This document shows, in pieces, positions 556 to 36,140 of a stretch of 36,140 bases of DNA. The stretch's first letter is position 1; every line of letters starts with the position of its first letter. A program made the position numbers and the translations under genes. The DNA comes from an uncultured Clostridia bacterium (GTDB lineage Bacteria; Bacillota_A; Clostridia; TANB77; CAG-508), in NCBI GenBank assembly GCA_947625985.1, contig CANQQF010000055.1, positions 1-36,140 on the forward strand, in the 5' to 3' direction. The notes under the pieces were generated by a model, which saw only the letters and a program-made list of their open reading frames with translations, was not told the DNA's origin and searched no databases.

Positions 556-560
556 AATTA

Positions 561-568: not shown

Positions 569-579
569 AATAAATTTAT

Positions 580-892: not shown

Positions 893-899
893 AAGGAGG
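893..899 (+). promoter_or_regulatory. ribosome binding site that decides the A1 start
   Basis: AAGGAGG lies 5 bases before the ATG at 905. It argues for starting there rather than at the in-frame ATG at 842, which would add 21 non-signal residues before the export signal. Confidence 0.8.
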
Positions 900-904
900 A
901 AGTT

Positions 905-5401: not shown

Positions 5402-5419
5402 GAAGGGAGGAGAAGGAAA

Positions 5420-10201: not shown

Positions 10202-10232
10202 TATAAAATATTACAACCTTCTAAGTAAAACT

Positions 10233-10271
10233 AAAAAGAATTTCAGATTAATTTCTGAAATTCTTTTTTTT
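10233..10271 (+). terminator. intrinsic terminator after B1
   Basis: AAAAAGAATTTCAG (10233-10246) and CTGAAATTCTTTTT (10255-10268) form a perfect 14-bp stem around an 8-base loop, running into a T-tract. It ends the A1-B1 transcript. Confidence 0.9.
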
Positions 10272-10347
10272 ATGCTTAAAAAACAAAAAATAGAGAAACC
10301 CTACGGAAAAAAGAAAAAGAAATACAAATTTACAAAACTTATAAAAA

Positions 10348-10375
10348 TGTAACAATAATGTAAATAAATCTTAAA
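10348..10375 (+). promoter_or_regulatory. 11-bp-periodic direct repeats upstream of A2 (possible operator)
   Basis: TGTAAC (10348), TGTAAA (10359) and CTTAAA (10370) are spaced exactly 11 bases apart, about 100 bp before the -35. The same series precedes A3. Hexamers repeated once per helical turn are typical of OmpR/PhoP-family response-regulator sites, but the regulator is not known here. Confidence 0.4.
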
Positions 10376-10394
10376 CAAAGTAATAAAAAAACTC

Positions 10395-10421
10395 AAAACG
10401 ACCTTCCCTAAGAACAAAAAA
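10395..10421 (+). promoter_or_regulatory. 27-bp element shared with the A3 upstream region
   Basis: The stretch, with core ACGACCTTCCCTAAGAAC, is identical to 25082-25108 and sits 57 bases before the -35, against 58 at A3. It contains TTC-N5-GAA. It is not present before A1. A regulatory role is inferred from its conservation in position and sequence among less conserved surroundings. Confidence 0.4.
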
Positions 10422-10451
10422 GATGAAAAAAAAAAGTGCTAAAAACAGCTA

Positions 10452-10480
10452 TTGATTTAGAAAAAAAAAGAAAGTAATAT
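10452..10480 (+). promoter_or_regulatory. promoter of the A2-B2 operon with an A9 tract in its spacer
   Basis: TTGATT (10452-10457) and TAATAT (10475-10480) are 17 bases apart. The spacer reads TAG-A9-G-AAA-G, so a homopolymer of nine A (10461-10469) lies between the two hexamers. The A3 promoter has the same structure. Confidence 0.7.
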
Positions 10481-10520
10481 ATTATTAATTAATATTATAA
10501 GAAGAATGAGAGGGATTACT

Positions 10521-15652: not shown

Positions 15653-18600
15653 ATGAATAGTACTACAAAAAAAAGTAAATTAAATAGTAAATTGAAAATA
15701 ATTGGAAAAATTATTTTAAGTATATTATGTATTATTTGTTCTATTTTTGTAGTAAAGCAAAAGGCATACGCCGTAGATGCATATGTTGATATTGTTCTTG
15801 ACGATAATGGGAGGTTTGTTGCGCCTAATCCTACAATAAATGGTTGGTTTTATTGTATGTATTCAGGTAACTATAATCCTAATAAAGTCGAATTAAAAGG
15901 TTACGCTGAAGTATTTCATGATCATATAGAGTTTCATAATCGTTATGGAACAAAAATAGAAGGTAAAGATTCTTATTTCCCAGGGTGCAGATTTACAAAT
16001 CAGATTGCAATGATGGTTAGTATGGCGAAAGCTGGACAAGATCCTAGCAATCATTTTGGAAACAGCCGAAAAAGTAATCGTCAAAGGTGGATGTGGAGTC
16101 ATCTAGGAGGATTTGATACGATTAACTGGATGAGAGGAGAGTGTGGTATTAGTACAGGTGAATTTCCTCTCCATGATGTAGACAACAGTGGTGGTGGAAT
16201 ATATAGTACAGACGAATACAATGATTATATTCCTTATTTTAATGGATCAGGTTCAATTGAAGCACATGCTGAATTAAGCTCAGTTGGCGCTAATGTTGAA
16301 ATGAATACAGTTATAAATGGTAATACAGAATATGTTGCAATAGGACCATTAACAGTTTCAAATAGATCGGGAAATATTACAGCTGGACATATATATGATG
16401 GAAATGGCGTTGAATATGGAAATAGAGTATATGCATACAGATATAGCGAACATGACTTTGGAGTAGCAGATTTATCAGGAGTGGAGAACAATAGTGAATT
16501 TTATGTATTGCTTAATAAAACAGAGTTTTTAACAAGAGGAGGCACGACTAAATTCAGTTTAGACGTAATTGGTATAGATGGAACAGCTTTTGTTGGTACT
16601 CAAATGCCATGTAGAATTGCTTTTTGGTATGGAAACAATGGAACACAACCACTGGTAAGTTTAGCGGGGGGAACTTATGATATAAAAGTTCCAGATGAAA
16701 AACCAACAACGTATGAATGTCCAGTAACTATTCCTCCTGTACCTTCGATTAATATTAATAAATATGCCGACGATGGTAATGGATATGCTAATACAGCTAA
16801 GGGAATGTTATCAGGTGCAAGATTTACGATTAGATTAAAAAATGGTGGATATTTGACACACGGGTCTAGTTGGGATCCTATCACAGGGTCAGGAACAATA
16901 ACAGATGATTGTTATACCAATGTTACAGAGCTTACTGAAGAACAGAAAAAGCAAGATAATGAATATAAATTTATTACAATGTCAACTCAAACAAGAGGAA
17001 TAAATCTTGACAGATTAAGACCAGGAGAATATGAAGTAGAAGAAGTTGTGCCTCCACCAGCTGATGTAAATGATGGTATAGGTTATGGATTATCATTTAA
17101 TGGTGAAGGTAGTGGAAACAAAGCAACATTTACTGTTTCAGAAAACAGTATTGTTACACCAGATAGACTAGACTTTATTAATAAACCACTTGGAGGATTA
17201 GTAATTAGAAAATTTGCAGCTGATGGATTTGGAAATGCATTACCAGAAAAAGGATTATTAGCAGGTGCAGAATTTACAGTTTATAGTGAAACAGAAGGAA
17301 AATATGTTAGCGCAGAAAATGTAGGAACAGGTGTAGTTGGAACATATAAATTTAATGGTTGGACTGATAATAAAGCATTAGCAAATTTTACCACAGGTAG
17401 TGAAGAAGAAGGAATTGAAGGAAAAGGAATTGAAATAAAAATTACAGGTTTACCTCCAGGAACATATAAAGTAACAGAAGATAAACCACCTACAGGATAT
17501 GACTTATCACACAATGGTGAGAAAGGAGGAAACGTAGCAACAGCAACAATTGAAGAAAATTCATCAGAAATAATACCACTAGATTTCCATAATAAAAAAC
17601 CACCGCCACCTCCAAATTCAAACTTAAAAATATATAAGTATCAAGAAATAGTATCAATAGGCCAGGAATCTTTTGGAGAATCAGTAGGAGAAAGAATAAA
17701 TGTATTATTACCAGGAGCAGAATTTATAGTATGGTTTGAACCAGATGTATCAGATGAATATTATAAAGAGCTAGGATTAACTGAAGACCAGGTTTATAAG
17801 AAATATAATCGTAGATTGATAAAGTTAGATGAAGAAGGAAATGCACAATATACAAATTATGAAGTTACAAATTATTATGATAATGCTGATGTTAGACAAA
17901 GTGATGTGCGTTATCAAAGTTATATACCAAAAGCTAAAGATGTAGAGGGTGATGGAGAAGAAATTACAATTGATGATGAAAATTACCCTATAATAAAAGA
18001 TGAAAAAGGTTTAGGGTATGTAGAGCTTAAAAATATTTTGCCAGGAAGTTATATTATGAAAGAAATTAAAGCTCCGGATCGTCCAACAAATGGTACAGGT
18101 CAAACAGGTAAAGGTGGAGAATCGACTTCTAGAACAATTGAGCGAGGAGCAGAGCCAAAACGAAAAGGAGATGAAACATATAATGACTTTCAAATAGATG
18201 AATCTCCACCAAATGGAATTCAAGGATTAAAAGTAGGTCAAAATTATGAACATTTATTTATGGACGAAACAGCTGCTGGTATTCATATTAGAAAATATGA
18301 ATTTGACAATCAGTTAGATTATGATAATGCGTCAGAATCACAGAAAACAGCAAAAAAAGCTAGTACAAAAGTTACAATTCAATTAAAGCCAGAGCCTAAT
18401 GGAGATCCGGGCGAAGGAAGTCCAGATAGAGCTATAGTAAGAGATGATGAAAGAAATGTAAGTGATAAATATATCGGACGTTATTTAGATCCAAACTCTG
18501 ATGCATGGATAGGTGATTATAATTCAGCAGAAGGTGCATATTTCGAAGCACATAGAAAAGATGATGTTTATAAAGAAGCTGCAAATCAAGATGCAGCAGT

Positions 18601-21600
18601 AGCTGCTGGCTATGTATTTGAAATACCTGAAGGCGGAGAAGCTTTTTTAAGACATTTAATACCAGGAAGATACATAATACGAGAGGTAGATGAAAGTAAA
18701 CTACAAAGAGCTGAGGTTTATACGAAGCAGTTAAATGCTGGAGCAGATGAAACAATAGTATATGCTGATTCTGATAAGGCTAACAAAGATATTGAAACAG
18801 CACAAGAAGACGGTGTAGAAGTGTATACTAGAAAGAAAGAGTTCTACCATCCAATTGTTAGTTTATGGAATGGTGACGGATCAAAAGTAGAAATAGAGAA
18901 AGTTGACGAAGATGAAAATCCTGTAAAAGGAGCAGTAATTACATTAGCATATGTAGGAGATGGAAGTAATCCAAATGCTAAACCAGAATATGTACAAAAA
19001 AGTGGAACAGTAAAAAGAGACGATTATGGACCTAATGAAGTTAAATTTACAATACCTGAAGAAAATCCTGAAAAATCAGAAGATGGGGGAGACTCAGCAA
19101 AAATTGTCTTTAGGAACCTAAAACCAGGTAAATATCAAATAACAGAGGTCGAAGCTCCAGATGGATATTCTAAACTAGAAATTCCAAAAGAATTTGAAGT
19201 AAAAGAAAAGATGGAAGAACCAGTGGAAGTAAAACTTGAAAACAAAGAAATAAAAACACAGGAATTGCAAGTTTATAAAGTAGAAAAAGGTACAGAAAAA
19301 CAAATAAAAGATGCTACATTTACATTACAATATACACAACCAGATAATAAATATTTGAAATATAAAAATTTATATGTTCAAACAGAAAAAGGTAAAGGGG
19401 TGGCTATAGAAGAAAGATATACTTCTGAAGAAAAAGAATTTAGGACAAAAGCAGAAGAAGGTGGAGTATCATTTAATAACTTATTACCAGGTAAATATAC
19501 AGTAAAAGAAACAAATCCACCACCAGGATATAGTTTAACAGATCAAACGCCAGAACAATTATCAGCTAAAGTTATTGAGAATTCAGATAAACCAGTAAAA
19601 ATAAAAATTGAAAATGAGAAAAAAAGAGATTGCTCATTGGTAATTGAAAAAGTTGATGCAGATACAGGAATGACAATAAGAGATTTAGAGGCGGAATTTT
19701 TAATTGAATATAATGATGCCGAAGATAGGAATAGATATGTAAAAAAACCAGGTGAATATACAAGTTCGCAAACCAACGTTCGAACAGAAGGTGGTTTTAT
19801 AGAACTTAATAACTTAAAAGCAGGATCTTATACAATAACAGAGAAAAAGGCGCCAGAAGGATATGAAATAATTGAACCATCAAGCCTTCAAAAAACACTA
19901 GAAACAGGAGATAATGTAGTTGTAATAAAGAATAAGAAGAAATCAAATTCACCTTCACCTTCACCTTCACCTTCTATAACACCTACAGGAGATTTAGGAT
20001 TATGGAAATACATTAAAGGAACAACAGCAGGACTAGAGGGATTTGAATTCCAATTAATACAATATGATATAAATGATGAGTATCCATCAATATGTAGAGA
20101 TGAGGTTTCTCCAGGAACAGTTACAGAAAACAATAATTATAGAGATAAAAGAACAGATTACTGGTCATGGGTACCAGATCCACCACCTCCAGAACCAGAA
20201 CCGGAAGGAGGAACTCCAGTTAGTAAGGCTATAACTACTATAACTTCAAACAGTACAGCACTTCAAAGCGGAACACAAAAAACAGAGTATAATTGGCCAG
20301 TAATTGAACAAATAAATCCAGGTGATCGTGCAAACCATATAACATCTATGGTAGGAGTTGGGGTAAGTCCAGGAAGTATAGGTTCCACAAACAATAAAGG
20401 AATGGATATATCTTGTAATACAGATACAAAGATAGTAGCTACAGCTAAGGGAACGGTAATAAAAGCAGGATGGTATGGAGAATATGGATTTACAGTAGTA
20501 ATCGATCACGGAGAAAAATCAGATGGAGAACACTTATATAGTTTATATGGACATAATAGTAATATTTCAGTAAATATTGGAGACAAAGTAAATGAAAATG
20601 AATTAATAGCAACAGCAGGATCAACAGGAAATTCAACAGGTACACAGTGTCACTTTGAAATTAAGAGAGGAAAAAGTTTTGAAGAAGGTTATGTTGTAGA
20701 TCCAATTTCATTATTTGCAGAGGGGCAAGTAGTTGGTGTATCTGCACAACCAGAGATTATGCAGATAGCAACAGGAGGATACCATGCAGAAGATGAAAAT
20801 GGAAACACATTAGCAGGAGTATCAGAACAAGCAGTATATAATCATAATAATGAGATAAATGAAGAAAATGAGGAAATAGAAGAATGGAATAAAAAACTTG
20901 ATGAATATAATGCTAAAGTAAGAAAAGCAAAAGAAAAATATGAAGCTAGACAAAATTTATTACGCAATAATACAAAAAATGGAGTATTAAAAACAAATGA
21001 AATAGGTTATATAGATTTAACATTTTTAGGAGAAAAGAATTTAGCAGAAGAAGCTAATATAAATGAAGAATACGATTCGTCAGTAACAAGTGGTGATGAC
21101 GGACATGGAATATTCTTAATAAAAGAGATAAGTGTAGGAAACAACCCATACTTCAATGTTGATAGTAACAATCAAAAAGAAATTCATGGAAGACTAGAAG
21201 AGGATATAGTATTTGAAAACAAGAGAATGAGAGTAGATATTGAAGGATATATATGGGAAGATATACCAACCCTAGGAAAAGAAGGTACAGAACGTAGAAC
21301 AGCAGACGGAATATGGGGCTCAGGAAGAGATCATCTTCTTTACCCAGTAGTTGTAAAACTAAAAAATGGTAATATGGTATTAGGACAAGGTATAATAACT
21401 ACAGATGGATTCTATAGAATTAGAGCAGGAGGAAGTAACGGTGAATTTATAGATTATATTACGGACAAAGGAAGAGCATCAAATACTTATATAGAATTCA
21501 CATATAATGGATTAAAGTATCAAAGTTGTTATGACGCAGTTTTAGGACAAGAAAATGGTTCTAAAGCTGAGGAAAAGCCAGAAGAAAGAAGATCGTTTAA

Positions 21601-24600
21601 TGAAAGATTATCAACAATAGTTTCAAATTCAGGAGCTGCCACACAAAGCAATACAGGTACTGGAAACACAGTAATGAACTATGATTCAAGTGGAAGTTAT
21701 GAGAAAAAGATAAACTATGAAGGAAATGTATCAGGAAGATTTACAGGAGAGAGTGCAGATCCAATAGCTGACGGAAAATATACATTAGGACAAAAAATGC
21801 CAAAAGCAAGTGAAAAAGACCCACAAACTCAACAAAAAGCAGGAAATGGAGATAAAAGCACATATCCAAATAACACTTATTATATTGGAAGCGAACAACC
21901 AGGTAATAAATATCAAATCCATGCAGATACAAAAACGGCAGGATTTAGAGGATTTATAGATTATAATGTTGTAAATGATAAAATTACTGGAGTTAACTTA
22001 GGTGTATATGAAAGAGAGCAACCGGATATAAGTTTAGTAAACGATATTGAAAGGGTAAAAGTAAAAATAAATGATGAAGCATATTTATATCAATATGGTA
22101 AAAAATTGGCAAAAACGAAAGATGTATTCGATCAGACTCCAACAGCAAGATTTGGAAGTAATTTAAACCCTAAAAAATATACAAGAGAAGTATTAGCAGA
22201 AGAAATTCAAATTGATCCAAAAGATTATAGCAGTTCTAATGATCCATTTGAAGTAAAAGTTTACTATAAAACAGCAATACGAAATGATAGTACTAATTTA
22301 CTTATGCAGCCAGTAGAAGTAGTAAGTCAATATGATAGCAAATATGCGTTACCACAAGATGCAACAGCAGAAGTTGCGGCTGATATAGGACCTACTAATG
22401 TAGCTATGCCAGCGCAATGGAAAGATACATCTAGTCAGATAACAGGAAATAAATCTGCACCTGCTGGATATAAAAATGCATATAGAACTATAAATAATGT
22501 ATTGAAACCTGGAGAAGAAGTAGTATTCTACACAGAATATACAGTAAGTAGAGAGCAAGCAAAAGGATTGATTCAGGGACAGCCAACACTACAATTGTTT
22601 AATAATGTAGAAATAAATGCATATAAAACAACGTACCCAGGACAAGAAAGAAGAGGAGAAATAGGAACAGATGCCTTTGCAGGAGTTGATGTAGATTCAA
22701 TAGCAGGTAACGCTAACCCATTAAATAAAACAGCAACATTTGAAGATGATAACGATGAAGCACCGGTATTAGAATTAGTTCTAGGAGAAACTAGAGTAAT
22801 AACAGGACAAGTATTTGAAGATGCAGCTAATGCAGTAAAAGCAGGAAATAGAGAAGGAAGCGAATTAATGGCATATCTAGGAAATGGTAAAAAAGATAAT
22901 ACCGAAGGAGGAATTCCGCAAGTCACAGTAGAGTTAGTTGAACTTGATGATAATGGAAATGAGATACTAGAAAATGGAGAAACAAAAGTAAAAGTAACTA
23001 ATGGAAACCAGCATACATATGAAACATCACAAGCAAAAGTAATCACAGATGCTTACGGTAACTATAAATTTGAAGGATTTGTACCAGGAGAATATATAAT
23101 AAGATATACATGGGGGCAAGGTAAAGGAACTACAATTCCGTCAAAAGGTTCAGGAGAAAATGCAAAAGCATATGTACAGCAGTATAAGAGTACTATATTT
23201 AATAATGAAGCTAGATATCAAAGAATGACAGAAAATCCTCAAACAAATAGATGGTATTTAGATGAAAGTAATTTAATAGATAGAGGTGCTACTAACTTAC
23301 CATTATCTAGTGCTATTGATGATATGGCAGTAAGAAAGTTAATAGATAGTCAAATTGAGAATACTGGTAATGATGAAACATTTGGTGCAGATGAATATAA
23401 TGACTTGTATAAACCAGGAAGAACATATATATATCCTGGTATTGAAGATACTAACATAAATAAGAATCTTATAAAAGAAGTTTCAGCTAGAACACCTTCA
23501 TTTGATGTAGGAATTGAAGAGGTTAACGTAGATAGCGAAGATACTTCTGTAAAAACAGAAGGAAAAAATGACTATCCAAAATTCCAAATAAATAATCTTG
23601 ATTTCGGTATAACAGAACGACCAAAAATGGAAATGGATTTAGACCAAAAGATAGAGAGAGTTAAAATATCAGCGGCAAATGGAAACATAATACTAGATAC
23701 AAGTGTAGAATATGATGAAAATGGTGTTCCACATTTAAAAGGAAGTTATAATAATGCAACATATCCAAAAGAACCACAGGACGGAAGTTATCCAATTGGT
23801 GTATTCAAAACTGAACTTGACCAAGAAATAATGCAATATGCATCTTTGGAAATTACATATAAATTTATTATAGTTAATAACAGTCAATTAGACTTCGTAA
23901 TTAAAGAAGAAGGTTTAGGAAATAATGCTTATGACTTCCAATACAATGTACAAAATAATAGATATTATAAATATGGTGATTATGGAGGGGCAACAGAGCC
24001 TGAGGTTGAAATAAGACCTACAATAATTATTGATTATTTGGATAACAAGCTAAGTTATTTAAGAAATCCAGATACAAATGCACCAGAAGAAAACGACTTA
24101 TGGGAAAAGACAGATGAATCTGATGAAAGAGTAAAGAAAATATTATTTAAAAATGGAACACAAGGTAATAATTATAAAATGAACAATGAATTATATAAAG
24201 AAGGAACATATAATAGATATCCAGAACCAAACATAGAAGCAAGATTAAACTATATAAGGAGAAATTATTGGATACTTTTAAGAGATACAACACCAAATAA
24301 TATGGATAAATTAGCGAAAGAGTTAAATATTGATAATAAAGAAGAATATTTTAATGAACAATATATATCATTAAAAGCTCAAGAAAAATCAGAAGACGAT
24401 GTTAAACTTGTGGCATCAAAATATATAGCTGATACATCAGAAGGTTTAATATTCTATTCTTCAGGAGAAATAGCCCAAATGAATAGAACAGGAGGAGCAA
24501 TACCAGAAAATACAATACCAGCAAATATGGATCCAACAAATATAGGATATTATAATTCTGATGATAAAAATACGAACTTCCAAGATCAAAATAATTTTGG

Positions 24601-24793
24601 AGATGATAATACAAAATATACATTAGAAAATGATGGATCATGGGCCGGAATAATCACAATCACACCACCTACAGGAAATACTAAAGATTATAGTAAAACA
24701 ATAACAATGATTATTTCTATAATAGGATTAGGTGTTGTAGCAATAATATTAACAAGTAAAAAAATAAGAATAATAAAAATAAAGAAATGGTAA
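15653..24793 (+). CDS. B2: 3046-residue thioester-like/SpaA multidomain surface protein with an inserted M23-like domain
   Basis: The start is supported by AAAGGAAG just upstream. A signal peptide ends near AYA40. The head (~60-170) resembles a divergent thioester domain: C68 (FYCMY) and Q144 (NRQRWMW) align with B1. The post-head domain is at ~215-345. Eight SpaA/Cna_B-type domains run from ~365 to 1860, each with a strand-A Lys, a Glu of the xTExxxPxGY type and a terminal Asn (Asp in the third). Domain eight is interrupted by an M23-like domain (~1545-1690) and a charged helical, coiled-coil-like segment (~1728-1775). Two SdrD_B-like modules (from ~1861 and ~2381) and DUF11-like modules follow, as in B1, then TPPTG (3004-3008), a membrane helix and a Lys-rich tail. 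It is probably a covalently stabilised fibre with a reactive tip. The wall-hydrolase-like insert is unexpected and probably inactive. Confidence 0.87.
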   Translation: MNSTTKKSKLNSKLKIIGKIILSILCIICSIFVVKQKAYAVDAYVDIVLDDNGRFVAPNPTINGWFYCMYSGNYNPNKVELKGYAEVFHDHIEFHNRYGTKIEGKDSYFPGCRFTNQIAMMVSMAKAGQDPSNHFGNSRKSNRQRWMWSHLGGFDTINWMRGECGISTGEFPLHDVDNSGGGIYSTDEYNDYIPYFNGSGSIEAHAELSSVGANVEMNTVINGNTEYVAIGPLTVSNRSGNITAGHIYDGNGVEYGNRVYAYRYSEHDFGVADLSGVENNSEFYVLLNKTEFLTRGGTTKFSLDVIGIDGTAFVGTQMPCRIAFWYGNNGTQPLVSLAGGTYDIKVPDEKPTTYECPVTIPPVPSININKYADDGNGYANTAKGMLSGARFTIRLKNGGYLTHGSSWDPITGSGTITDDCYTNVTELTEEQKKQDNEYKFITMSTQTRGINLDRLRPGEYEVEEVVPPPADVNDGIGYGLSFNGEGSGNKATFTVSENSIVTPDRLDFINKPLGGLVIRKFAADGFGNALPEKGLLAGAEFTVYSETEGKYVSAENVGTGVVGTYKFNGWTDNKALANFTTGSEEEGIEGKGIEIKITGLPPGTYKVTEDKPPTGYDLSHNGEKGGNVATATIEENSSEIIPLDFHNKKPPPPPNSNLKIYKYQEIVSIGQESFGESVGERINVLLPGAEFIVWFEPDVSDEYYKELGLTEDQVYKKYNRRLIKLDEEGNAQYTNYEVTNYYDNADVRQSDVRYQSYIPKAKDVEGDGEEITIDDENYPIIKDEKGLGYVELKNILPGSYIMKEIKAPDRPTNGTGQTGKGGESTSRTIERGAEPKRKGDETYNDFQIDESPPNGIQGLKVGQNYEHLFMDETAAGIHIRKYEFDNQLDYDNASESQKTAKKASTKVTIQLKPEPNGDPGEGSPDRAIVRDDERNVSDKYIGRYLDPNSDAWIGDYNSAEGAYFEAHRKDDVYKEAANQDAAVAAGYVFEIPEGGEAFLRHLIPGRYIIREVDESKLQRAEVYTKQLNAGADETIVYADSDKANKDIETAQEDGVEVYTRKKEFYHPIVSLWNGDGSKVEIEKVDEDENPVKGAVITLAYVGDGSNPNAKPEYVQKSGTVKRDDYGPNEVKFTIPEENPEKSEDGGDSAKIVFRNLKPGKYQITEVEAPDGYSKLEIPKEFEVKEKMEEPVEVKLENKEIKTQELQVYKVEKGTEKQIKDATFTLQYTQPDNKYLKYKNLYVQTEKGKGVAIEERYTSEEKEFRTKAEEGGVSFNNLLPGKYTVKETNPPPGYSLTDQTPEQLSAKVIENSDKPVKIKIENEKKRDCSLVIEKVDADTGMTIRDLEAEFLIEYNDAEDRNRYVKKPGEYTSSQTNVRTEGGFIELNNLKAGSYTITEKKAPEGYEIIEPSSLQKTLETGDNVVVIKNKKKSNSPSPSPSPSITPTGDLGLWKYIKGTTAGLEGFEFQLIQYDINDEYPSICRDEVSPGTVTENNNYRDKRTDYWSWVPDPPPPEPEPEGGTPVSKAITTITSNSTALQSGTQKTEYNWPVIEQINPGDRANHITSMVGVGVSPGSIGSTNNKGMDISCNTDTKIVATAKGTVIKAGWYGEYGFTVVIDHGEKSDGEHLYSLYGHNSNISVNIGDKVNENELIATAGSTGNSTGTQCHFEIKRGKSFEEGYVVDPISLFAEGQVVGVSAQPEIMQIATGGYHAEDENGNTLAGVSEQAVYNHNNEINEENEEIEEWNKKLDEYNAKVRKAKEKYEARQNLLRNNTKNGVLKTNEIGYIDLTFLGEKNLAEEANINEEYDSSVTSGDDGHGIFLIKEISVGNNPYFNVDSNNQKEIHGRLEEDIVFENKRMRVDIEGYIWEDIPTLGKEGTERRTADGIWGSGRDHLLYPVVVKLKNGNMVLGQGIITTDGFYRIRAGGSNGEFIDYITDKGRASNTYIEFTYNGLKYQSCYDAVLGQENGSKAEEKPEERRSFNERLSTIVSNSGAATQSNTGTGNTVMNYDSSGSYEKKINYEGNVSGRFTGESADPIADGKYTLGQKMPKASEKDPQTQQKAGNGDKSTYPNNTYYIGSEQPGNKYQIHADTKTAGFRGFIDYNVVNDKITGVNLGVYEREQPDISLVNDIERVKVKINDEAYLYQYGKKLAKTKDVFDQTPTARFGSNLNPKKYTREVLAEEIQIDPKDYSSSNDPFEVKVYYKTAIRNDSTNLLMQPVEVVSQYDSKYALPQDATAEVAADIGPTNVAMPAQWKDTSSQITGNKSAPAGYKNAYRTINNVLKPGEEVVFYTEYTVSREQAKGLIQGQPTLQLFNNVEINAYKTTYPGQERRGEIGTDAFAGVDVDSIAGNANPLNKTATFEDDNDEAPVLELVLGETRVITGQVFEDAANAVKAGNREGSELMAYLGNGKKDNTEGGIPQVTVELVELDDNGNEILENGETKVKVTNGNQHTYETSQAKVITDAYGNYKFEGFVPGEYIIRYTWGQGKGTTIPSKGSGENAKAYVQQYKSTIFNNEARYQRMTENPQTNRWYLDESNLIDRGATNLPLSSAIDDMAVRKLIDSQIENTGNDETFGADEYNDLYKPGRTYIYPGIEDTNINKNLIKEVSARTPSFDVGIEEVNVDSEDTSVKTEGKNDYPKFQINNLDFGITERPKMEMDLDQKIERVKISAANGNIILDTSVEYDENGVPHLKGSYNNATYPKEPQDGSYPIGVFKTELDQEIMQYASLEITYKFIIVNNSQLDFVIKEEGLGNNAYDFQYNVQNNRYYKYGDYGGATEPEVEIRPTIIIDYLDNKLSYLRNPDTNAPEENDLWEKTDESDERVKKILFKNGTQGNNYKMNNELYKEGTYNRYPEPNIEARLNYIRRNYWILLRDTTPNNMDKLAKELNIDNKEEYFNEQYISLKAQEKSEDDVKLVASKYIADTSEGLIFYSSGEIAQMNRTGGAIPENTIPANMDPTNIGYYNSDDKNTNFQDQNNFGDDNTKYTLENDGSWAGIITITPPTGNTKDYSKTITMIISIIGLGVVAIILTSKKIRIIKIKKW
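19949..19974 (+). repeat. 6-bp microsatellite in B2 (Ser-Pro linker)
   Basis: TCACCT-type units are repeated about four times and encode SPSPSPSPS between SpaA domains seven and eight. It is short and in frame; six-base units would change length without breaking the frame. Confidence 0.7.
20288..20723 (+). other. M23 (LytM)-like domain inside B2, active site degenerate
   Basis: The fold is recognisable from NKGMDIS, GTVIKAG, VVIDHG, LYSLYGH, GDKV and TQCHFEI, in the usual M23 order. In active M23 peptidases the metal site is HxxxD plus the second His of HxH. Here the first His is Asn (N1581, with D1585 kept) and the HxH reads Q1665-C-H1667. H1634 in YGH is kept. Zn2+ binding and catalysis are therefore doubtful, and a binding or structural role is more likely, as for other degenerate LytM domains such as NlpD. 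A helical Glu/Lys-rich segment follows at about 20840-20970. Confidence 0.82.
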
Positions 24794-24885: not shown

Positions 24886-25033
24886 TTTATATAGAAATCA
24901 AAATTGAAAAAAATTAAAAATTTCAAAAATTTTGCTTTTTACCTAAAAAATAAAATGGTAATTTATGAATGATAAATATAAAAGAAAACTTACGGAAAAG
25001 CAAGGTTCAAAAAAAGCACAAAATTAAAAAAAA

Positions 25034-25072
25034 TGTAACAATAATGTAAATAAATTTTAATAAAAGTTAATA
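25034..25072 (+). promoter_or_regulatory. 11-bp-periodic direct repeats upstream of A3 (possible operator)
   Basis: TGTAAC (25034), TGTAAA (25045), TTTAAT (25056) and TTAATA (25067) start exactly 11 bases apart. The first two units and the bases between them are identical to those before A2, at nearly the same distance from the promoter. Confidence 0.4.
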
Positions 25073-25081
25073 AAAAAACCT

Positions 25082-25108
25082 AAAACGACCTTCCCTAAGA
25101 ACAAAAAA
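25082..25108 (+). promoter_or_regulatory. 27-bp element shared with the A2 upstream region
   Basis: Identical to 10395-10421 and 58 bases before the -35. The sequence on both sides is less well conserved than the element itself, which suggests a protein-binding site. Confidence 0.4.
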
Positions 25109-25139
25109 CGGCTATAAAAAAAAATGCAAAAATTCTCTA

Positions 25140-25168
25140 TTGATTTAGAAAAAAAAAGAAAGTAATAT
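25140..25168 (+). promoter_or_regulatory. promoter of the A3-B3 operon with an A9 tract in its spacer
   Basis: TTGATT (25140-25145), a 17-base spacer and TAATAT (25163-25168), with nine consecutive A at 25149-25157. The hexamers and spacer are identical to those of the A2 promoter. Confidence 0.7.
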
Positions 25169-25210
25169 ATTATTAAGTTAATTTTTGTAAGAAGAATGAG
25201 AGGGATTACT

Positions 25211-28200
25211 ATGGAAAAATTAAGACTAAGTAATAAGGCTTTTGCCAACAAGTTAATAGCAATACTTGTTATCTTCTGCATGATTTTTGTGCAATATGCA
25301 ATAGTGGGAGGTAACATAGTACAAGCTGTAGCAGAAGAGCTAGAAGAGCAAGAAACGATAACGAAAGGAGAAAATGTTGAATTCAATGCATTCTTTAGAA
25401 GTGATAATGGTTCAACTCATGAAGCAGAGCTAAATTTAGAAGAGACGCAAAAACTGTATATAGAAGTTTCAGTAAAAGATAAAGTTTCTGTAAGAAATGC
25501 TGTTATTAATATAAAAGATGCAAACTTCAATATTAAAAAAGATGAAATAAAAGATAACAGATATATAAGTAAAATAGACACTGAAGCAAATGAAATACAA
25601 CTAAAAGGTATATCTTCTAATAATACAGTATTAATTGAATTGCCAATTGAATTCAAAAAACAAGAAAAAATAAATTCAAGTTATTTCGAAAAAGAAGTTA
25701 ATATCACATTAAAAGGAAATACTGAAGATATTAGTCAACGTGTAAAAGATTTAGAAGGAAGTGTAACTGTTAAGCCATTATGGACTGCATATACAGAATT
25801 AAATTTAACACAATCAATTGATAAATATTTCAGTTTAGGAGATAAAGGAACAATACTTCAACAAACAGTAAAATCTGAAGTTAAAAATAATGCATTACCA
25901 AGATATAAAGAAGTTATACAAACAGAAGCACCAACAGTAGCTAATGAGAAACCAGAAAGAGTAACAGTATTAGTCGATGGTGAGAAAGTTGATGATAATA
26001 ATGTTGAATATAACAATGGAACAGTAAAAGTTACATATTCTAAAATAGACGATAGTGATGGAAATATTGAGTGGGGAGATGCTAAAAAAGAATATACATT
26101 TATGTATCATTACAATAGTACAACACCATTAGTAGAAACACCAATAAAATTAAATACAAAAGTAGAAAGTTCACAATATACAAAAGATGATAATGTTACA
26201 AAAGAAGATACAACAGAAATAGTAGCAACACCAATAGGAAATATTACTACTGTAGAAACAACTCTAACAGGAGATATTTATAAAGGTTATTTATATGAAA
26301 ATGAAGCAAAAGAACTTCAATATGTAGAAAGAAACGATATAGATGTTTCATATATAGAAGGAATTGAAAATATACAATTACAAACAAACAACAATACATA
26401 TGCAAATGAAGCAGGAATCGGAGTAATCTCAGCACAAAACATAACATATAAACAAACACAAGTAAATAAAAAAGAAATATTAAAATTACTAGGACAAGAA
26501 GGAAAAGTAACAATAAAAAGGGCGACAGGAGAAGTAATTACAGAAATAACAAAAGATACACAAGAAGATGAAAAAGGAGTAATAACAGTAGAATATCCAG
26601 AAGGTGAAACAGGAATAGTTATTGAAACAACAAAACCACAAGTAGAAGGAAAAATGACAGTATTAAATACAAAAGCTATAAGTGGAGTGACAAATCAACC
26701 AAGAACAGCAATCAGTCTTATTAAACAATTAATAGTAAACCCAGAAATAATAACAAATGTAAGTAAAGAAGGAACAACTGCATCATTAGAAATGAAAGAA
26801 CCAACAACAGAAGCATCAATTGAAGTAAATAGAACTTCTTTAACAACAACTCAAGAAAATCAAAAAATAGAAATAAAAGCAATGTTAAATACAAATGATG
26901 CAAAACAAGACTTATATGCAAATCCTTCACTAGCAATAGAATTACCATCAGATATACAATCAGTAAATGTAGAAAGCATTGATAAATTATATGGAGATGA
27001 GTTTACAGACGTAAGAGCAAGTCAAGGAGTAGTAAATGGTAAACAAGTTATAAGGATTGATTTAACAGGAGAACAAAAAGAACATAAAGAAGCAGGTATA
27101 AATGGAACTGTATTAAATATTAAAGCAAATGTAACATTAAACAAAAAAGCAATAAGTAAAAAAGATAATATAAAAATGACTTATACAAATGCTAAAGCTA
27201 CTCAATATAAAGATGCTCAACCTATAGGAACTGCAGAAACACCACTAGAAATAATATATCCAAAAGCATTAATTACAACAAATGAAATAGCTGATTTACA
27301 AGTTGAAACATTTGGAGAGCAAGAAGAAGTAACTAAAACAATACCATATGGAGCAGGAGAAAAAGTTCTTAATATAGGCTCAAAAGTTATAAATAACAAT
27401 TCATCAGAAATAAAAGATGTAAAAATCTTAGGAACATTTGGAACACAAGGAACAGTAAAAATAGGAGAAAAAGTATTTGAAAACAACATAAATTCTATGC
27501 TTGTAGGTGAGTTTGCGGTAAATAATGCAGATATGAGTAAAGTAAAAATATATTATACAGAAAATGAATCAGCTACAGATGATATAGAAGATACAAATAA
27601 TAGATGGCAATCTACTTTAACAAATGTTAGTGCAATTAAAAAATATTTAGTTGTAGTTTCAAATATGGTTAATGGAGAAGAATTAGATATAAACTATAAT
27701 GTTAAAGTTCCTGCAAATTTGGAACATAATCAAAAAATGTATCAAGGTTATACAGTAAAATATAATGACGATAAAACTATAGGAGATCATCAAGTTTCAG
27801 CAACAACAATACAATTGAAAACAGGTATTGGACAAAAAATAGAAGCTAAGTCATCAGTAAAAGTTGGAAATAGTGTAGTTAACAACAATGAGATAGTAAA
27901 AAGAGGAGAAAAAATAGAATATAACATAGAAATATCAAACACAGGTGATGAAGATATAAAAAATGCAGTAGTTAGAGGAATAGTTCCAGAAGGAGCAACA
28001 CTACTAAATTCGAAAAATGAAAAATATTATGGAGTTTATACTGAATCACCAGAAAGAGAAGTAAATTTTGAAATTCCAGAAATAAAAGCTGGAGAAAAAA
28101 TAAATAAATCATATATAGTAAAAGTAAATGATAATGCACAAACTCAATCAGCTATAAACCAAGCTATGAGTGTTGAATATAATGGAAATGAAGTGCATAA

Positions 28201-30070: not shown

Positions 30071-33000
30071 ATGAAAAGATTTATTAAAAATTTATTATTA
30101 TCAATAATAGCCATATTTATTATAATAATAGGAATGAAAATTAATTTTGCTAATGTATCAGGTGAAATTGTTAAAGCCAGATATTTGCCAAATGGAAAGA
30201 TAGAAGTAAGTAATGGTGCGAATAATATTTATAGCATTGGTTCTAATAAAGAAATAAATAACGAAATAGGAATTGCTAGTCGTGTAGGAGAAATTACTTT
30301 TAAAGAAGATGGAGTTTATGTTGACGACAAAAATTTAGGTTGGGATGATGGTAAATATAGATTAGCATGGGCAATAGTTAATGCAACACCTGAATTAGAA
30401 AATACAGATAACGAGAAATATCAAGTTGTTAGAGCAGTTATAAGTGATTCTGTTAGATATTTAGGAAATCAATTTGGAATCAACTTTGAAGGAAAAAGTA
30501 GTGAAGGAGTAGATACTTCTAAATACGAAGAAGAAATACAAGAGTTTATCAAAGAATGTAAAATAGTTAATAATGAAGATGTACTTAAAGTATATCCATC
30601 AGTAAACTCTAAAAATCTTAAAGTACAAGAATACAAATATAAAAATGAAGAATGTATAAAAATAGGACCATTAGAGATGGATATGCCTTATGGAGGAATT
30701 CTAGATAATTATGAAGTTATAGATACAAATAATTCAGTGATTCCTGAAAATGAATGTAAAATCATTAAATCTAATAGTGATGAAATAAAAGCAAATGAAA
30801 TAAAAAGTCAATCTCCTTTCTATGTTTTAGTTAAAAAATCAGCTGTAAAAGAAGGAATAAAAAATATTAACTTCAACGCAACACGTATTCAAAAACATAT
30901 TGGAGAGGGAAGTAAAATATCAGTATATAAAAGTGTAAAAGCAGGACATCCTGATTTTATATCAATAGAATACAATGTAACCTCAGAGGAACAGGCGGTA
31001 TCAGTAACATATAGCCAAAATGTAGATTGGAAACTTACAGAAGAGACAAAGTCATCAGAAGAAGAAACAAAGCCATCAGAAGAAGAGACAAAGCCATCAG
31101 AAGAGATAAAACTATTAAAAGAAGAGGCAAAACCATATGTGGGAGCAGAGATACAAATACATAAATATGCAGCAAAACCAGATGGAACTACAGACACAGA
31201 AAAAGGAATACTAGAAGGAGCAAGATTTGTAGTAAAAAATGTAACTACAAATGAATATATAAAACATACAGATGCAAATTATCAACCAACAGAAGCAGTA
31301 TTCAATGTAGATGATTCATGTTATGAATATGTAAATGAACTTAGAGAAGAAACAATGTTCAATGAAAGAGGAAGTGCATATGCACAATTCTATCTAACAA
31401 ATGTAACTGGAAAACCAATAATATTGAAGAACCTAAAACCAGGAACATATAAGGTTACAGAAATACTACCACCAGATGGATATAGTTTATCAACAAATGG
31501 AGATGGAAATACAAATACACACACAATAACAATTAGAGATAATGGAACAATAGTACAATCAACAAACCAATTACATTTTATTAATAAAGAAGCAGTAGGA
31601 GCAAATTTAGAAATAAATAAATATGCACTAAAAGCAGATGGAAGCGTTGATGAAGAAAAAGGAGTTCTTGGTGGAGCAGGATTTGTAATAAAGAACATAA
31701 CTACAAATCAATATGTAACACATACAAGAGCTGATTACACATCAGAAAAAACTGAACTAAATGTAAAAGAATCTTCATACAAAAGATTAACTTCAAGTGA
31801 TGAAAATCTTTTAGTAAACATAAATCTATCTAAGTTTGAAGATTATATATTTATGACTACAGCAGGACAACCAATTAAGTTAAATAATCTAAAACCTGGA
31901 AAATATGAAGTAACGGAAGTAATGGCACCACAAGGTTATAGTTTATCAGTAAATGGTAATGGAAATTCAAACAAACATACAATAACGGTTTCTGAAGAAG
32001 GTAAAATACTAGAAAATACAAATACACTTAATTTCCATAATTCTGAAAGTAAAGATGTGGAAGTAAAAATATATAGATATGTAGCAAAATCAGATGGAAC
32101 TGCAGATGTAGAAAAAGGAATACTTGAAGGGGCAAGATTCGTAATAAAAAATACCACTACAAATCAATATTTAAAACATGAAAACGGAGAATACCAACTA
32201 GCGCAAGGAGTATTTAATCCAAATAATTCAAGCTATGAAACTTTATCTGGAAACAATGAGCAAAAAATGCTAAATGAAAAAGGAGAAGAATTCGGAAGAT
32301 TTTATTTTACTAATGCAAGAAATGTAGTGATAAAATTAAGAAACTTAAAACCAGGAAAATATAAAATAACAGAAATAATACCACCAGATGGATATAGTTT
32401 ATCAACAAATGGAGATAACAATTCGAATTCACAAACAATAACAATTAACTATGATGGATCAATAATTGAAGCAACAGACCAGTTGCACTTCATTAGTAAA
32501 GAATCTATTGGTGGAAATATAGAAATCCATAAATATGCATTAGCAGAAGATGGATCTAAAGATGAAGACAATGGAATATTAGAAGGAGCAAGTTTTGCAG
32601 TTAAAAACAAAACTACAAACCAATATGTAACACATGATAATACACAAGAGAAAACAAGTCATATGTTAATAGCAGCAAAAAAAGTACATAAAATAATGGA
32701 AGATAAAAATTATACATATGGAAGCAATACATCTCTTACAATTGAAGAATCAGAAAATCAAGGAAAAAAGGAATGTGACTGTTCAACATATGTAGATTGG
32801 GTATTAAATGAATTAGGACTAGACCTACAAACAAGATCGGCTGGAGCAGATATGAAATCAGAGCTAGATGCAGCTGATTGGTGTGAACCAGTTGCAAGTA
32901 GAGATGTTGCACAACCAGGTGATATAGTACTATATAATAGACACGTACAAATATATGGAGGAAAATCTATTAATGGACAAGATCAATGGTATAATGCAGG

Positions 33001-36000
33001 ATCTGAAGAATCTATAAAAACAAGGGCACCTTCAGTAATTGGACTACCATTTGGAAGTGAAATTGGAATATACCGTGTAAAAGATACAGCTATTCCAGAA
33101 GAATTAAGAGTGTCAGAAGAAATAAAAGAATCTTCATATAAAACATTAAGTAAAGAAGATGAAGATAAATTACTAAATATAGATCCAGAAAGTTTCAGCG
33201 AATATTTATTTACAACTACAGCAGGACAACCAATAAGATTAAATCAATTAAAACCAGGAGAATATGAGGTAACAGAACTAATAGCACCAGAAGGATATAG
33301 TATATCAACAGATGGAGTAGAAGGTTCAAATACACTTACAATAACAATAAACGAAGATGGATCAATGGCAGGAGGAACTAACCAATTACGTTTTTATAAT
33401 AAGATAGCAGAACAAATGACTCCTGCAGAAATGCAAATATCTAAATATGCAGCAAATGTAGATGGAACTGCAGATAAACAAAGTGGAATACTAGATGGAG
33501 CTATATTTGTAGTAAAAAATACATCTACTGGTATGTATATAAAACATGTAGATGACAATTATCAAACAGAAGAAGGAATCTTCGAAACAAATGAAACAAA
33601 TTATGAAGCTTTAAGTGAAGAAGACGAACAAAGAATGTTAAATTTAAGAGAAGATGAATTCAAACAATATTACTTAACAAATTTACCAGGAAAACCAATA
33701 ATAATAAGGAATTTAATATCTGGTAAATATACAATTACAGAGTTATTACCACCAGATGAATATAGCTTATCAACAAATGGTAAAAACAATTCAAATTCAC
33801 GTACTCTAACTGTTAGAAAAGATGGAACAATAGTACAACCATCAAATGAATTAGAATTCATTAATAAAGAAGCAGTTGGTGGAAATATAGAAATCCATAA
33901 ATATGCACAAAATGAAGATGAAAGTGAAGATACAGAAAAAGAAATTATGGGTGGAGCAGGATTTGTAATAAAAAATACAACTACAAATCAATATGTAACA
34001 CATACAGAAGAAAGTTATGATGAGAAAGAAACAACATTAGAAGCAAAAGAATATTTATATAAAATATTAGATGAAGCAAGTGAAAAAGAATTATTATTAA
34101 ATAATTCATCAGGATATGAAAATTATTTATTTACAACTACAGAAGGACAACCAATTAGATTAAATAATTTAAAACCAGGAAAATATGAAGTAACAGAAAT
34201 AATAGCTCCAGAGGGATATAATTTATCTAAAAATGGAGAAGGAAATACAAACAAATTAACAATAACAATAAATGAAGATGGATCAATTGAAGAAGAAGAC
34301 AATCAGTTACATTTTTATGATTCTGAATGTAAAGATAAAGAAATTCAGATTTACAAATATGGACTAACAGAAAATGGCGATATAGATAAAGAAAAAGGTA
34401 TACTAAAAGGAGCAAGATTTGTAGTAAAAAATGTAACTACAGATGAATACTTAACTCATACAGATGAAAACTATAATGAATCAGAAGGAACTTTTGATGT
34501 AGAAGATTCAAGTTATAAAAAGTTAATTGAAGCTGAAGAACAAATTGTATTAACTGACAGAGGAGAAAATGAAAAAGATTATTACTTAATAAGTACAAAT
34601 GAAAAACCAATAGTGTTGAAGAACTTAAAAGCAGGAGAATATAAAATAACAGAAATGTTACCGCCTGAAGGATATAGTTTATCAACAAATGGAGAAAAAA
34701 ATACAAATTCACAAACATTAACAGTAAATGAAGATGGAACAATAAAAGAACAAACAAATGAAATGTTTTTCTATAACAAAAAACAATATTGCACAAATAT
34801 AGAAATAAATAAATTCGGATTAAATGATCAAGGAAAAATAGATAAAAATAGTGAAGTTATAGAAGGAGCAAGCTTTACAATAAAAAATATAACAACAAAT
34901 CAATATGTTACTCATACAAATAAAAACTATCCATTACAAAATAATGAAATAAACTTGAATGAATTATCATATAAAACTTTAGACGAAAAAAATGAAGAAC
35001 TTTTACAAAAAAGGGAATCATCTTTAGTTAAAAATTATACATTTAATACTTTAAAAGGAAAATCAATAAAATTAAACAATTTAAAACCAGGAAAATATGA
35101 AGTAAGAGAGCTAGTAGCACCAGAAGGTTATAATTTCTCAACAGATATTAATGGAAATAGTACAAATGTACAAACATTAGTGATAAATGAAGATGGATCA
35201 ACAGAAGACGATAAAAGATCTTTAGATTTCTATAATTCAAAATATAAAACTGCTGATATAGAAATACATAAATATGCAGCAAATCCAGATGGAACTACAA
35301 ACACAGAAAAAGGAATACTTGAAGGAGCAAGATTTGTAATTAAAAATACAACTACAAATGAGTATTTGAAACATGTAAATGGAGAATATCAACCAACAGA
35401 AGGAATATTTAATGCAAAAACTTCAAGCTATACAGTTTTAGATGAGACTAGTGAGCAAGCAATGTTCAATAAAAGAGGACAAGCTCATGGAGAATATTAT
35501 TTTACAAATGTAGCAGGAAAAGCTATACAATTGAAAAACTTAAAACCAGGAGTTTATAAGATAACAGAAATACTACCACCAGATGGATATAGTTTATCAA
35601 CAAATGGAGATGGAAATTCAAATACACACACAATAACTATTAATGGAGATGGAACAATAAAAGAACCAACAAACCAATTACATTTCATTAATAAAGAAGC
35701 AGTTGGTGCAGATATAAAAATTGTCAAATTTGCACTAAATGATGACGGAACAGTAAATGAGAATAAAGGAATGCTTGGAGGAGCAAGTTTTGTAATCAAA
35801 AATACAACTACAAATCAATATGTAACACATACAAGAGCTGATTACACATCAGAAAAAACAGAATTAGATGTAAACGAGATTGCATATAAAACATTAACAA
35901 ATGATGAAAATAATCTACTAAATACAAATCCATTAAGTCTTGGAGAATATACATTTAAAACTACAGAAGGACAACCAATTAAATTAAATAAATTAAAACC

Positions 36001-36140
36001 AGGAGATTATGAAGTAACAGAAGTAATAGCTCCAAATGGATATTATTTATCAGAAAATGAAAGAACGCATAAATTTACAATATACGAAGATGGAACTATA
36101 AGTTTACCAACAAATGAATTACATTTCCATAACCGTGAAG
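30071..36140 (+). CDS. B3: giant SpaA-repeat surface protein with an inserted NlpC/P60-like domain (3' end outside the window)
   Basis: The reading frame is open from the ATG at 30071 (AAAGGAGGGGAG upstream) to the window edge: 2023 codons with no stop, so the gene is incomplete. A signal peptide covers about residues 1-28. The head (~30-165) resembles the B1/B2 head around LAWAIVN and KYQVVRAVI (Q118), but has no cysteine before C163, so no thioester can form there. The post-head domain (~195-320) is conserved. An acidic linker of EETKPSE units (~324-355) leads to at least ten SpaA/Cna_B-type repeats of about 152 residues, starting near 359, 511, 662, 815, 1119, 1271, 1423, 1575, 1728 and 1880. 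Repeat four carries an NlpC/P60-like domain of about 152 residues. The missing C terminus is predicted, by analogy with B1 and B2, to hold SdrD_B/DUF11 modules and a TPPTG-like anchor. Confidence 0.87.
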   Translation, partial: MKRFIKNLLLSIIAIFIIIIGMKINFANVSGEIVKARYLPNGKIEVSNGANNIYSIGSNKEINNEIGIASRVGEITFKEDGVYVDDKNLGWDDGKYRLAWAIVNATPELENTDNEKYQVVRAVISDSVRYLGNQFGINFEGKSSEGVDTSKYEEEIQEFIKECKIVNNEDVLKVYPSVNSKNLKVQEYKYKNEECIKIGPLEMDMPYGGILDNYEVIDTNNSVIPENECKIIKSNSDEIKANEIKSQSPFYVLVKKSAVKEGIKNINFNATRIQKHIGEGSKISVYKSVKAGHPDFISIEYNVTSEEQAVSVTYSQNVDWKLTEETKSSEEETKPSEEETKPSEEIKLLKEEAKPYVGAEIQIHKYAAKPDGTTDTEKGILEGARFVVKNVTTNEYIKHTDANYQPTEAVFNVDDSCYEYVNELREETMFNERGSAYAQFYLTNVTGKPIILKNLKPGTYKVTEILPPDGYSLSTNGDGNTNTHTITIRDNGTIVQSTNQLHFINKEAVGANLEINKYALKADGSVDEEKGVLGGAGFVIKNITTNQYVTHTRADYTSEKTELNVKESSYKRLTSSDENLLVNINLSKFEDYIFMTTAGQPIKLNNLKPGKYEVTEVMAPQGYSLSVNGNGNSNKHTITVSEEGKILENTNTLNFHNSESKDVEVKIYRYVAKSDGTADVEKGILEGARFVIKNTTTNQYLKHENGEYQLAQGVFNPNNSSYETLSGNNEQKMLNEKGEEFGRFYFTNARNVVIKLRNLKPGKYKITEIIPPDGYSLSTNGDNNSNSQTITINYDGSIIEATDQLHFISKESIGGNIEIHKYALAEDGSKDEDNGILEGASFAVKNKTTNQYVTHDNTQEKTSHMLIAAKKVHKIMEDKNYTYGSNTSLTIEESENQGKKECDCSTYVDWVLNELGLDLQTRSAGADMKSELDAADWCEPVASRDVAQPGDIVLYNRHVQIYGGKSINGQDQWYNAGSEESIKTRAPSVIGLPFGSEIGIYRVKDTAIPEELRVSEEIKESSYKTLSKEDEDKLLNIDPESFSEYLFTTTAGQPIRLNQLKPGEYEVTELIAPEGYSISTDGVEGSNTLTITINEDGSMAGGTNQLRFYNKIAEQMTPAEMQISKYAANVDGTADKQSGILDGAIFVVKNTSTGMYIKHVDDNYQTEEGIFETNETNYEALSEEDEQRMLNLREDEFKQYYLTNLPGKPIIIRNLISGKYTITELLPPDEYSLSTNGKNNSNSRTLTVRKDGTIVQPSNELEFINKEAVGGNIEIHKYAQNEDESEDTEKEIMGGAGFVIKNTTTNQYVTHTEESYDEKETTLEAKEYLYKILDEASEKELLLNNSSGYENYLFTTTEGQPIRLNNLKPGKYEVTEIIAPEGYNLSKNGEGNTNKLTITINEDGSIEEEDNQLHFYDSECKDKEIQIYKYGLTENGDIDKEKGILKGARFVVKNVTTDEYLTHTDENYNESEGTFDVEDSSYKKLIEAEEQIVLTDRGENEKDYYLISTNEKPIVLKNLKAGEYKITEMLPPEGYSLSTNGEKNTNSQTLTVNEDGTIKEQTNEMFFYNKKQYCTNIEINKFGLNDQGKIDKNSEVIEGASFTIKNITTNQYVTHTNKNYPLQNNEINLNELSYKTLDEKNEELLQKRESSLVKNYTFNTLKGKSIKLNNLKPGKYEVRELVAPEGYNFSTDINGNSTNVQTLVINEDGSTEDDKRSLDFYNSKYKTADIEIHKYAANPDGTTNTEKGILEGARFVIKNTTTNEYLKHVNGEYQPTEGIFNAKTSSYTVLDETSEQAMFNKRGQAHGEYYFTNVAGKAIQLKNLKPGVYKITEILPPDGYSLSTNGDGNSNTHTITINGDGTIKEPTNQLHFINKEAVGADIKIVKFALNDDGTVNENKGMLGGASFVIKNTTTNQYVTHTRADYTSEKTELDVNEIAYKTLTNDENNLLNTNPLSLGEYTFKTTEGQPIKLNKLKPGDYEVTEVIAPNGYYLSENERTHKFTIYEDGTISLPTNELHFHNRE
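31040..31135 (+). repeat. 21-bp acidic linker repeat in B3
   Basis: Units encoding EETKSSE, EETKPSE, EETKPSE and the degenerate EIKLLKE form a charged 7-residue repeat between the post-head domain and the first SpaA repeat. It occupies the place of the Pro/Thr linker of B1 but is unrelated in sequence. Confidence 0.75.
31145..36140 (+). repeat. array of ten or more SpaA/Cna_B-type repeats in B3, of two alternating types
   Basis: The repeats begin near 31145, 31601, 32054, 32513, 33425, 33881, 34337, 34793, 35252 and 35708, a period of about 456 bp; the fourth is longer because of an insertion. Odd repeats generally contain (E/D)GARFV(V/I)KN and LPPDGYSLSTNG. Even repeats contain GG/EGASF or GAGF, TTNQYVTH, (T/A)GQPI and (I/V)APxGY. 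Most have the Lys (IHKYA), Glu (TEI/TEV) and Asn (FxN) expected for an intramolecular isopeptide bond. The array runs out of the window. Confidence 0.88.
32640..33110 (+). other. NlpC/P60-like cysteine peptidase domain inserted in SpaA repeat 4 of B3
   Basis: Residues ~857-1013. DCSTYVDWVLNELG supplies the catalytic Cys (C904) in the family DCSxxV context, and GDIVLYNRHVQIYGG supplies the catalytic His (H958). WYNAG after it is where the third polar residue is expected. Family members cleave peptidoglycan stem peptides or related amides. The flanking SpaA sequence resumes at the matching place, with K and E/N isopeptide candidates kept, so this is a clean insertion. It looks catalytically competent, unlike the M23-like insert in B2. 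Confidence 0.85.

Follow-up and report, generated by a model that had tools for sequence, protein, structure and literature searches.

The 36,140-nucleotide stretch of DNA analysed here (hereafter the window; contig CANQQF010000055.1 of assembly GCA_947625985.1) comes from an uncultured Clostridia bacterium, probably a gut inhabitant, and has a guanine and cytosine (GC) content of 29.5%. Its plus strand carries six giant open reading frames (ORFs) arranged as three A/B pairs, the labels A and B extending those of an earlier note on this DNA. Pfam assigned DUF11 and SdrD_B to the A-type ORFs and SpaA to the B-type ORFs. The third B-type protein, B3 (30071..36139, plus strand), is a giant SpaA/CnaB-repeat surface protein with 2023 open codons and ten visible repeats, and its 3' end lies beyond the window. 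The subject of the present analysis is an NlpC/P60 domain, a putative peptidase, standing inside the fourth of these repeats.

An NlpC/P60 domain within a SpaA repeat of B3

SpaA was recognized in ten stretches of B3 (Pfam E 5.1e-57), which supplies the tandem stalk domains that sortase-anchored fibrillar proteins require, and the N-terminus of the protein is hydrophobic by eye. Repeats 1–3 and 5–9 are 152–154 residues long, and repeat 10, cut by the window end, shows 141. Repeat 4 (32522..33433, plus strand, residues 818–1121) spans 304 residues, confirming the earlier note, which had given it that length instead of about 152. The note had also proposed that an NlpC/P60-like domain interrupts this repeat after TTNQYVTHDN and that SpaA sequence resumes with KESSYKTL. 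Both anchor motifs were found intact (TTNQYVTHDN at residues 848–857 and KESSYKTLSK at 1019–1028), and the gap from YVTH to [KN]E..YK amounts to 163 residues in repeat 4 versus 14 in the even repeats 2, 6, 8 and 10, indicating that a loop of 14 residues has been replaced by 163 residues (856–1018; 32636..33124, plus strand). These limits fall within a few codons of the 32640–33110 first given. The insert is in frame at both ends, and the reading frame is open throughout B3. GC at third codon positions (GC3) is 0.104 in the insert (32642–33103), 0.116 in the upstream and 0.086 in the downstream part of B3; the corresponding overall GC values are 0.338, 0.287 and 0.270, which places the insert at the top of the sliding-window range of B3, the windows including the insert itself.

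Repeat 4 keeps its isopeptide bond residues despite the insert, since the repeat table gives the Lys as K821 (32531..32533), the bond-catalysing Glu as E1069 (33275..33277) and the Asn as N1110 (33398..33400), all on the plus strand, and the host thus carries the complete Lys, Glu and Asn set of a CnaB domain. Elsewhere in B3, repeat 3 (32066–32524) has R669 for Lys and S809 for Asn and has lost both bond residues, and repeat 6 (33890–34348) has an Asp, D1417, in place of Asn. Weak Pfam/NCBIfam matches of YlzJ and phageSPP1_gp7 to the SpaA repeats were taken as chance.

The domain proper covers residues 858–1011 (32642..33103, plus strand). A profile search against PF00877, one of the checks suggested in the earlier note, passed the NLPC_P60 cut-off of 23 bits with 24.2 bits on the whole B3 and 28.7 bits on a 179-residue piece around the domain, and the predicted structure of the insert shows the NlpC/P60 papain-like fold on which the note had staked its claim. 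The Cys and His that it had called intact stand at the positions named, as the predicted nucleophile C904 (32780..32782) and the predicted catalytic base H958 (32942..32944), and are Cys and His in 36/36 rows of alignment A8, B3 included. The predicted third polar residue, N975 (32993..32995; all three on the plus strand), is more variable, with Asn in 27, Asp in five, Ser in three and Gly in one of the 36 rows; it directly follows a conserved Tyr, and the CTn7-Orf16 hydrolase has His there, in YHAG, according to the alignment. In the model, C904 opens helix 904–914, H958 opens strand 958–965 and N975 comes directly after strand 971–974, the places expected in the NlpC fold for a Cys at a helix start, a His on a strand and a third polar residue. 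The order of the residues is Cys, His, Asn, and the Cys does not stand near the C-terminus after the His as in the YaeF/LRAT-type permutation. Two alignments were left out of the modelling, namely the mixed SpaA and NlpC alignment A4, in which NlpC rows slid onto the SpaA part, and A6, which was stretched by a protein named P0005. Compared with the NlpC/P60 endopeptidases (PF00877, MEROPS C40; CwlO, MepS and CTn7-Orf16), the domain has the same fold, Cys-His order, third polar residue and GD motif; it differs in being housed within a giant repeat protein, in a CnaB loop, and is a putative enzyme.

Relatives of the domain and inserts in related proteins

The closest relative found was P0001 (49% identity over 75% of the query), a 238-residue protein with a hydrophobic stretch ahead of the domain. 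Together with related Clostridia NlpC/P60 proteins (L098, L104, L107, L123 and others), it forms the closest sequence kin found for the B3 domain. Unlike B3, P0001 has its hydrophobic stretch and some other relatives have lysozyme-type or Hydrolase_2 domains, while SpaA repeats accompany the domain only in L097/L077 within the stretches examined. Such relatives are common, as shown by matches at E 1e-3 in 16 of 22 genomes of relatives of B2, the sister of B3 (the genomes of 22 of the 76 loci), and at E 1e-8 in 69 of 292 sampled genomes from the family of G002, with 74 matches in total. Among the 62 of these 74 matches examined for SpaA context, one (L077/L097, genome G002) lies in a SpaA frame, and the other 61 had no SpaA match in the stretch seen. 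A Pfam scan of ten relatives found NLPC_P60 in eight at E 1e-3 (some below the cut-off), CHAP without NLPC_P60 in L110, and neither in L130; additional domains were Hydrolase_2 in one, a tail lysozyme in two and a phage lysozyme in one, and one of the tail-lysozyme proteins also had a Glucosaminidase match below the cut-off. Hydrolases of conjugative transposons are among the solved structures that the family profile matches, and, on the reading of these structures and of the additional domains, the relatives with such domains appear to belong to mobile elements.

A phage or plasmid origin of the insert was considered and set aside, as tblastn gave no match to it in phages or plasmids and viral contigs held no relative; a weak PHROG match (1.1e-7) pointed to tail proteins that have lysin activity. 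Genome contigs, when first scanned with B3, gave no match. When residues 846–1000 of B3 were compared with proteins of B3-like length, none of 163 candidates matched at E 1e-3, a result that is no proof of absence, as the search missed the insert-bearing P0005. A side finding among the relatives was a 1741-residue frame (G005:C10:5990-10477) with two NlpC-like matches, apparently another kind of wall-hydrolase protein.

Hydrolase-fold inserts were also found in other giant SpaA proteins. B2 itself (15653..24793, plus strand, 3046 residues; Pfam SpaA and Peptidase_M23) bears an M23 domain at 20288..20719 on the plus strand (residues 1580–1673, Pfam E 1e-24), in which two of the five canonical residues are replaced. 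One of the SpaA repeats of P0005, a 2565-residue relative of B2, contains an NlpC-like insert, which the family hidden Markov model (HMM) matched with an independent E-value (i-E) of 3e-8 and which Pfam did not call in matches listed to E 0.1. L097 (G002:C95), a 1653-residue frame filling its contig, has an NlpC-like insert in a SpaA repeat at residues 903–1054 (HMM i-E 3.2e-18), likewise not called by Pfam (to E 0.01). In L189 (G019:C21), a giant SpaA frame of 3566 residues at 99-10796, an M23 domain occupies residues about 1120–1249 (Pfam E 4.2e-16). By sequence reading, the NlpC-like inserts of L097 and P0005 occupy the same kind of place, a loop after the first strand, and that of B3 lies between the third and fourth strands; the M23 domain of L189 is near the repeat end and that of B2 is in the last SpaA domain. 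By eye, B2 relatives (L058, L063, L001, L097 and P0005) have a variable insert in the last SpaA domain, the M23 site of B2, often with several Cys and His.

Inserts of these kinds are rare but recurrent. SpaA repeats like those of B3 occurred in one of 390 family genomes at E 1e-12. At E 1e-6, two genus samples that overlap each had them in five of 97 genomes, with six genomes involved altogether. Apart from the window, none of the 76 loci fetched via the B2 family matched NlpC at E 1, and their only M23 match outside it was a separate 366-residue protein in L003. The close relatives L193 (the 3883-residue frame of L058), L190, L191 (2764 residues) and L192 had no NlpC or M23 match, and Pfam found neither in L001 or in the 2647-residue frame of L063. 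An insert-free locus is not an insert-free genome, because L002 (from G002) and L063 (from G019) belong to genomes whose inserts lie on other contigs.

The insert of L097 is probably a circularly permuted NlpC/P60 domain, and the permutation is probably a new one. The segment that follows the His in B3 (GQDQWYNAGSEESIKTRAP...IYRV) stands ahead of the helix in L097 (GTDLWFNAGGDWSINTPAP...VYRV). This segment of B3 scored 75 against residues 903–940 of L097 and 34 at best elsewhere in L097, and none of 5000 shuffles did as well. The family HMM placed its positions 110–136 ahead of the helix, weakly (i-E 0.018), and its positions 6–112 after that segment. L097 has the Cys, His and Asn in permuted arrangement, with the Asn segment first and the Cys before the His. 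The corresponding signal in P0005 is weak (score 33, a level that some 1.3% of shuffles attain; a chance match elsewhere scores higher, at 40). In the L097 model, the segment ahead of the helix has mostly a predicted local distance difference test score (pLDDT) below 50, and the VIA matches to the model start at residue 55 or later and end at 196–224, inside the SpaA part. The model may use a SpaA strand at the place of the permuted strand, which either counts against the permutation or shows that aligned rows were missing for the model there. A permuted fold, as L097 appears to have, is described for YaeF/YiiX-like and LRAT-like proteins in the consulted part of PMC3142127, and B3 is unpermuted; in the known permuted enzymes, as far as presented in the same source and PMC10318531, the Cys lies near the C-terminus, whereas the Asn segment of L097 stands first, with the Cys still ahead of the His.

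A tree of 41 sequences over 110 columns paired B3 with P0001 (95/88) and L097 with P0005 (95/83), P0005 being a long branch, and joined these four NlpC domains at 91/84. The tree pairs, the different loops and the permutation together favour at least two NlpC captures, and adding the two M23 placements brings the total to three or four events; a single origin of the NlpC inserts would be compatible with the 91/84 grouping.

Possible roles of the embedded domain

On the most likely reading, the insert of B3 is a module directed at peptidoglycan and incorporated in a covalent fibre. The earlier note's suggestion of an active wall hydrolase displayed mid-stalk, which could open the cell's own wall or attack neighbours, is borne out in part, for the fold, its place in a SpaA repeat and the intact Cys and His. 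B3 would be a giant surface-fibre protein whose shaft consists of SpaA/CnaB domains, most with Lys-Asn bond residues; a surface loop of repeat 4 has been swapped for a complete NlpC/P60 domain akin to the free wall hydrolases of related gut Clostridia. The host CnaB domain should still fold and crosslink, holding the peptidase as a side domain of the shaft. There it would meet the stem peptides of peptidoglycan, in the outer layers of its own wall or on a touching cell, and would bind and probably cut them in the manner of a gamma-D-glutamyl-diamino-acid endopeptidase, the activity of the NlpC/P60 family; the B3 domain is probably still such an endopeptidase. The recurrence of hydrolase-fold inserts in one protein group argues for a wall-directed role, and the apparently separate placing of NlpC/P60 and M23 domains in SpaA repeats suggests selection for a wall-directed module. 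The explanation as a whole, an NlpC/P60 domain held as a side domain in a shaft repeat of B3, directed at peptidoglycan and predicted to bind and probably cut it, appears fairly probable. A more tentative extension is that a group of gut Clostridia with stapled giant fibres may have repeatedly captured NlpC/P60 domains, plain and newly permuted, and M23 domains in different loops, giving fibres that grip or cut walls on contact.

Several observations weigh against this explanation. The insert is rare, with one of 62 NlpC matches in a SpaA frame. The best Foldseek match to the B3 model had an E of 0.013, with none at E 1e-3, and confidence in the model is low along its SpaA flanks (pLDDT mostly below 70). 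Display on the shaft is read from B1 and B2, because the anchor end of B3 lies beyond the window; the C-termini of B1 and B2 show, by eye, PPTG followed by a hydrophobic stretch and a basic tail. The count of events rests on the reading of loops and on a short tree (110 columns) that groups the four NlpC domains at 91/84. Finally, the M23 domains of B2 and L189 each lack two of the five canonical residues, different ones, and P0005 has Thr at the Asn place of the NlpC set.

The loss of canonical residues from both embedded M23 domains makes binding, as opposed to cutting, a serious alternative: hydrolase folds would have been taken up as side domains that bind peptidoglycan and staple the fibre to a wall, with cleavage absent or irrelevant. 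M23 domains of the LytM type carry the canonical residues HxxxD, YxH and HxH. In the comparison rows, taken from L003 and 20 loci of a sample in which all 97 genomes had M23 matches, H..D, Y.H and H.H were intact in 21/21, whereas B2 has NKGMD, YGH and QCH, with Asn replacing the first His and Gln replacing the first His of H.H; in L189 the His of Y.H is replaced by Asn and the last His by Gly. The embedded M23 copies look inactive, which suggests that binding can suffice in some members, and some may be binders only. The Thr of P0005 fits such a role, as does the presence among the best structural matches to the B3 domain of RipD, by its Protein Data Bank title a non-catalytic NlpC/P60 domain adapted to peptidoglycan binding. 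However, B3 differs from RipD in retaining the catalytic Cys; the RipD-type loss of catalytic residues is absent, with C904, H958 and N975 all present, there is no sequence sign of lost catalysis in B3, and L097 has all three residues in permuted order. A purely binding role is considered possible, although less than probable.

The domain could also serve its own cell by cutting crosslinks near the fibre, so that a stapled protein of 2000–3000 residues crosses the wall or settles in it. Conjugation machines rely on wall hydrolases in a comparable way, and both the conjugative-transposon hydrolases among the structures matched by the family profile and the very large size of the protein accord with such remodelling. 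Yet six more SpaA repeats separate the insert from the window end, so that with a wall-linked C-terminus the domain would probably be distant from the anchor, and L193 and L191, of similar size, have no NlpC or M23 match; this role is considered somewhat unlikely. A use against other cells, in which the peptidase on the fibre would reach cells that touch it and harm their wall, agrees with an enzyme on a long shaft and with the action of NlpC/P60 enzymes on the peptidoglycan of other organisms, as the titles of PMC7860986 and PMC6299479 indicate, but the inserts are sporadic among relatives, and antagonism is considered unlikely.

According to the available part of PMC12617251, CnaA and CnaB folds tolerate insertions, mostly of isopeptide or adhesion domains; in RrgA, Spy0125 and others (TED, vWFA and CnaB inserts), as in B3, a whole domain sits in a loop between bond-forming residues. 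A hydrolase domain common in the bacterial family could accordingly have landed in such a loop by chance as a neutral passenger, and the abundance of NlpC/P60 and M23 in the family, together with the rarity of the inserts, agrees with this. Nevertheless, the folds that recur in this one protein group are two unrelated ones of peptidoglycan hydrolases, and no further catalytic domain passed the Pfam cut-off in the scanned SpaA frames; a chance landing is considered distinctly doubtful. A misjoin of metagenomic reads is highly improbable, for although the DNA may have a metagenomic source and B3 is a repetitive gene, the insert is in frame at both ends, lies exactly between two motifs with GC3 like the rest of B3, and has similar counterparts in relatives from other assemblies.

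If the NlpC/P60 domain of B3 is indeed a peptidoglycan-directed module, a hydrolase inside a crosslinked shaft domain would make the fibre a wall-directed tool, and B3 would offer a model from nature for mounting an enzyme in a mechanically stapled domain; that unrelated hydrolase folds have apparently been captured repeatedly within one protein group makes this purpose testable. B3 is a variant of kinds already known, the domain insertion in CnaB and the 'fibrillar enzyme', a term in use in PMC9210967. As far as that article was available, its fibrillar enzymes resemble B3 in combining a stalk of repeated domains with an enzyme-type domain, and differ in that the enzyme region stands for an explicit adhesive domain, whereas the enzyme of B3 sits inside a stalk repeat. 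Among the titles and introductions found in the literature, none concerned a wall-hydrolase domain within a CnaB/SpaA repeat. The words hydrolase, peptidase and NlpC are absent from the main text of PMC12617251, as are NlpC, peptidase, hydrolase, CHAP and M23 from that of PMC8286594.

Neighbouring giant ORFs

The N-terminus of B1 (window 5420–6300) contains FC and QRAIYAYF motifs, which we take to recall a thioester adhesin domain, no Pfam match for such a domain being present. Among the A-type ORFs, the segments 10332–13302 and 25018–27992, comprising the 5' parts of the second and third with upstream DNA, share 88.7% identity over 2989 columns, and by eye a long internal stretch of the two proteins is near-identical. 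This likeness suggests a recent duplication or gene conversion.

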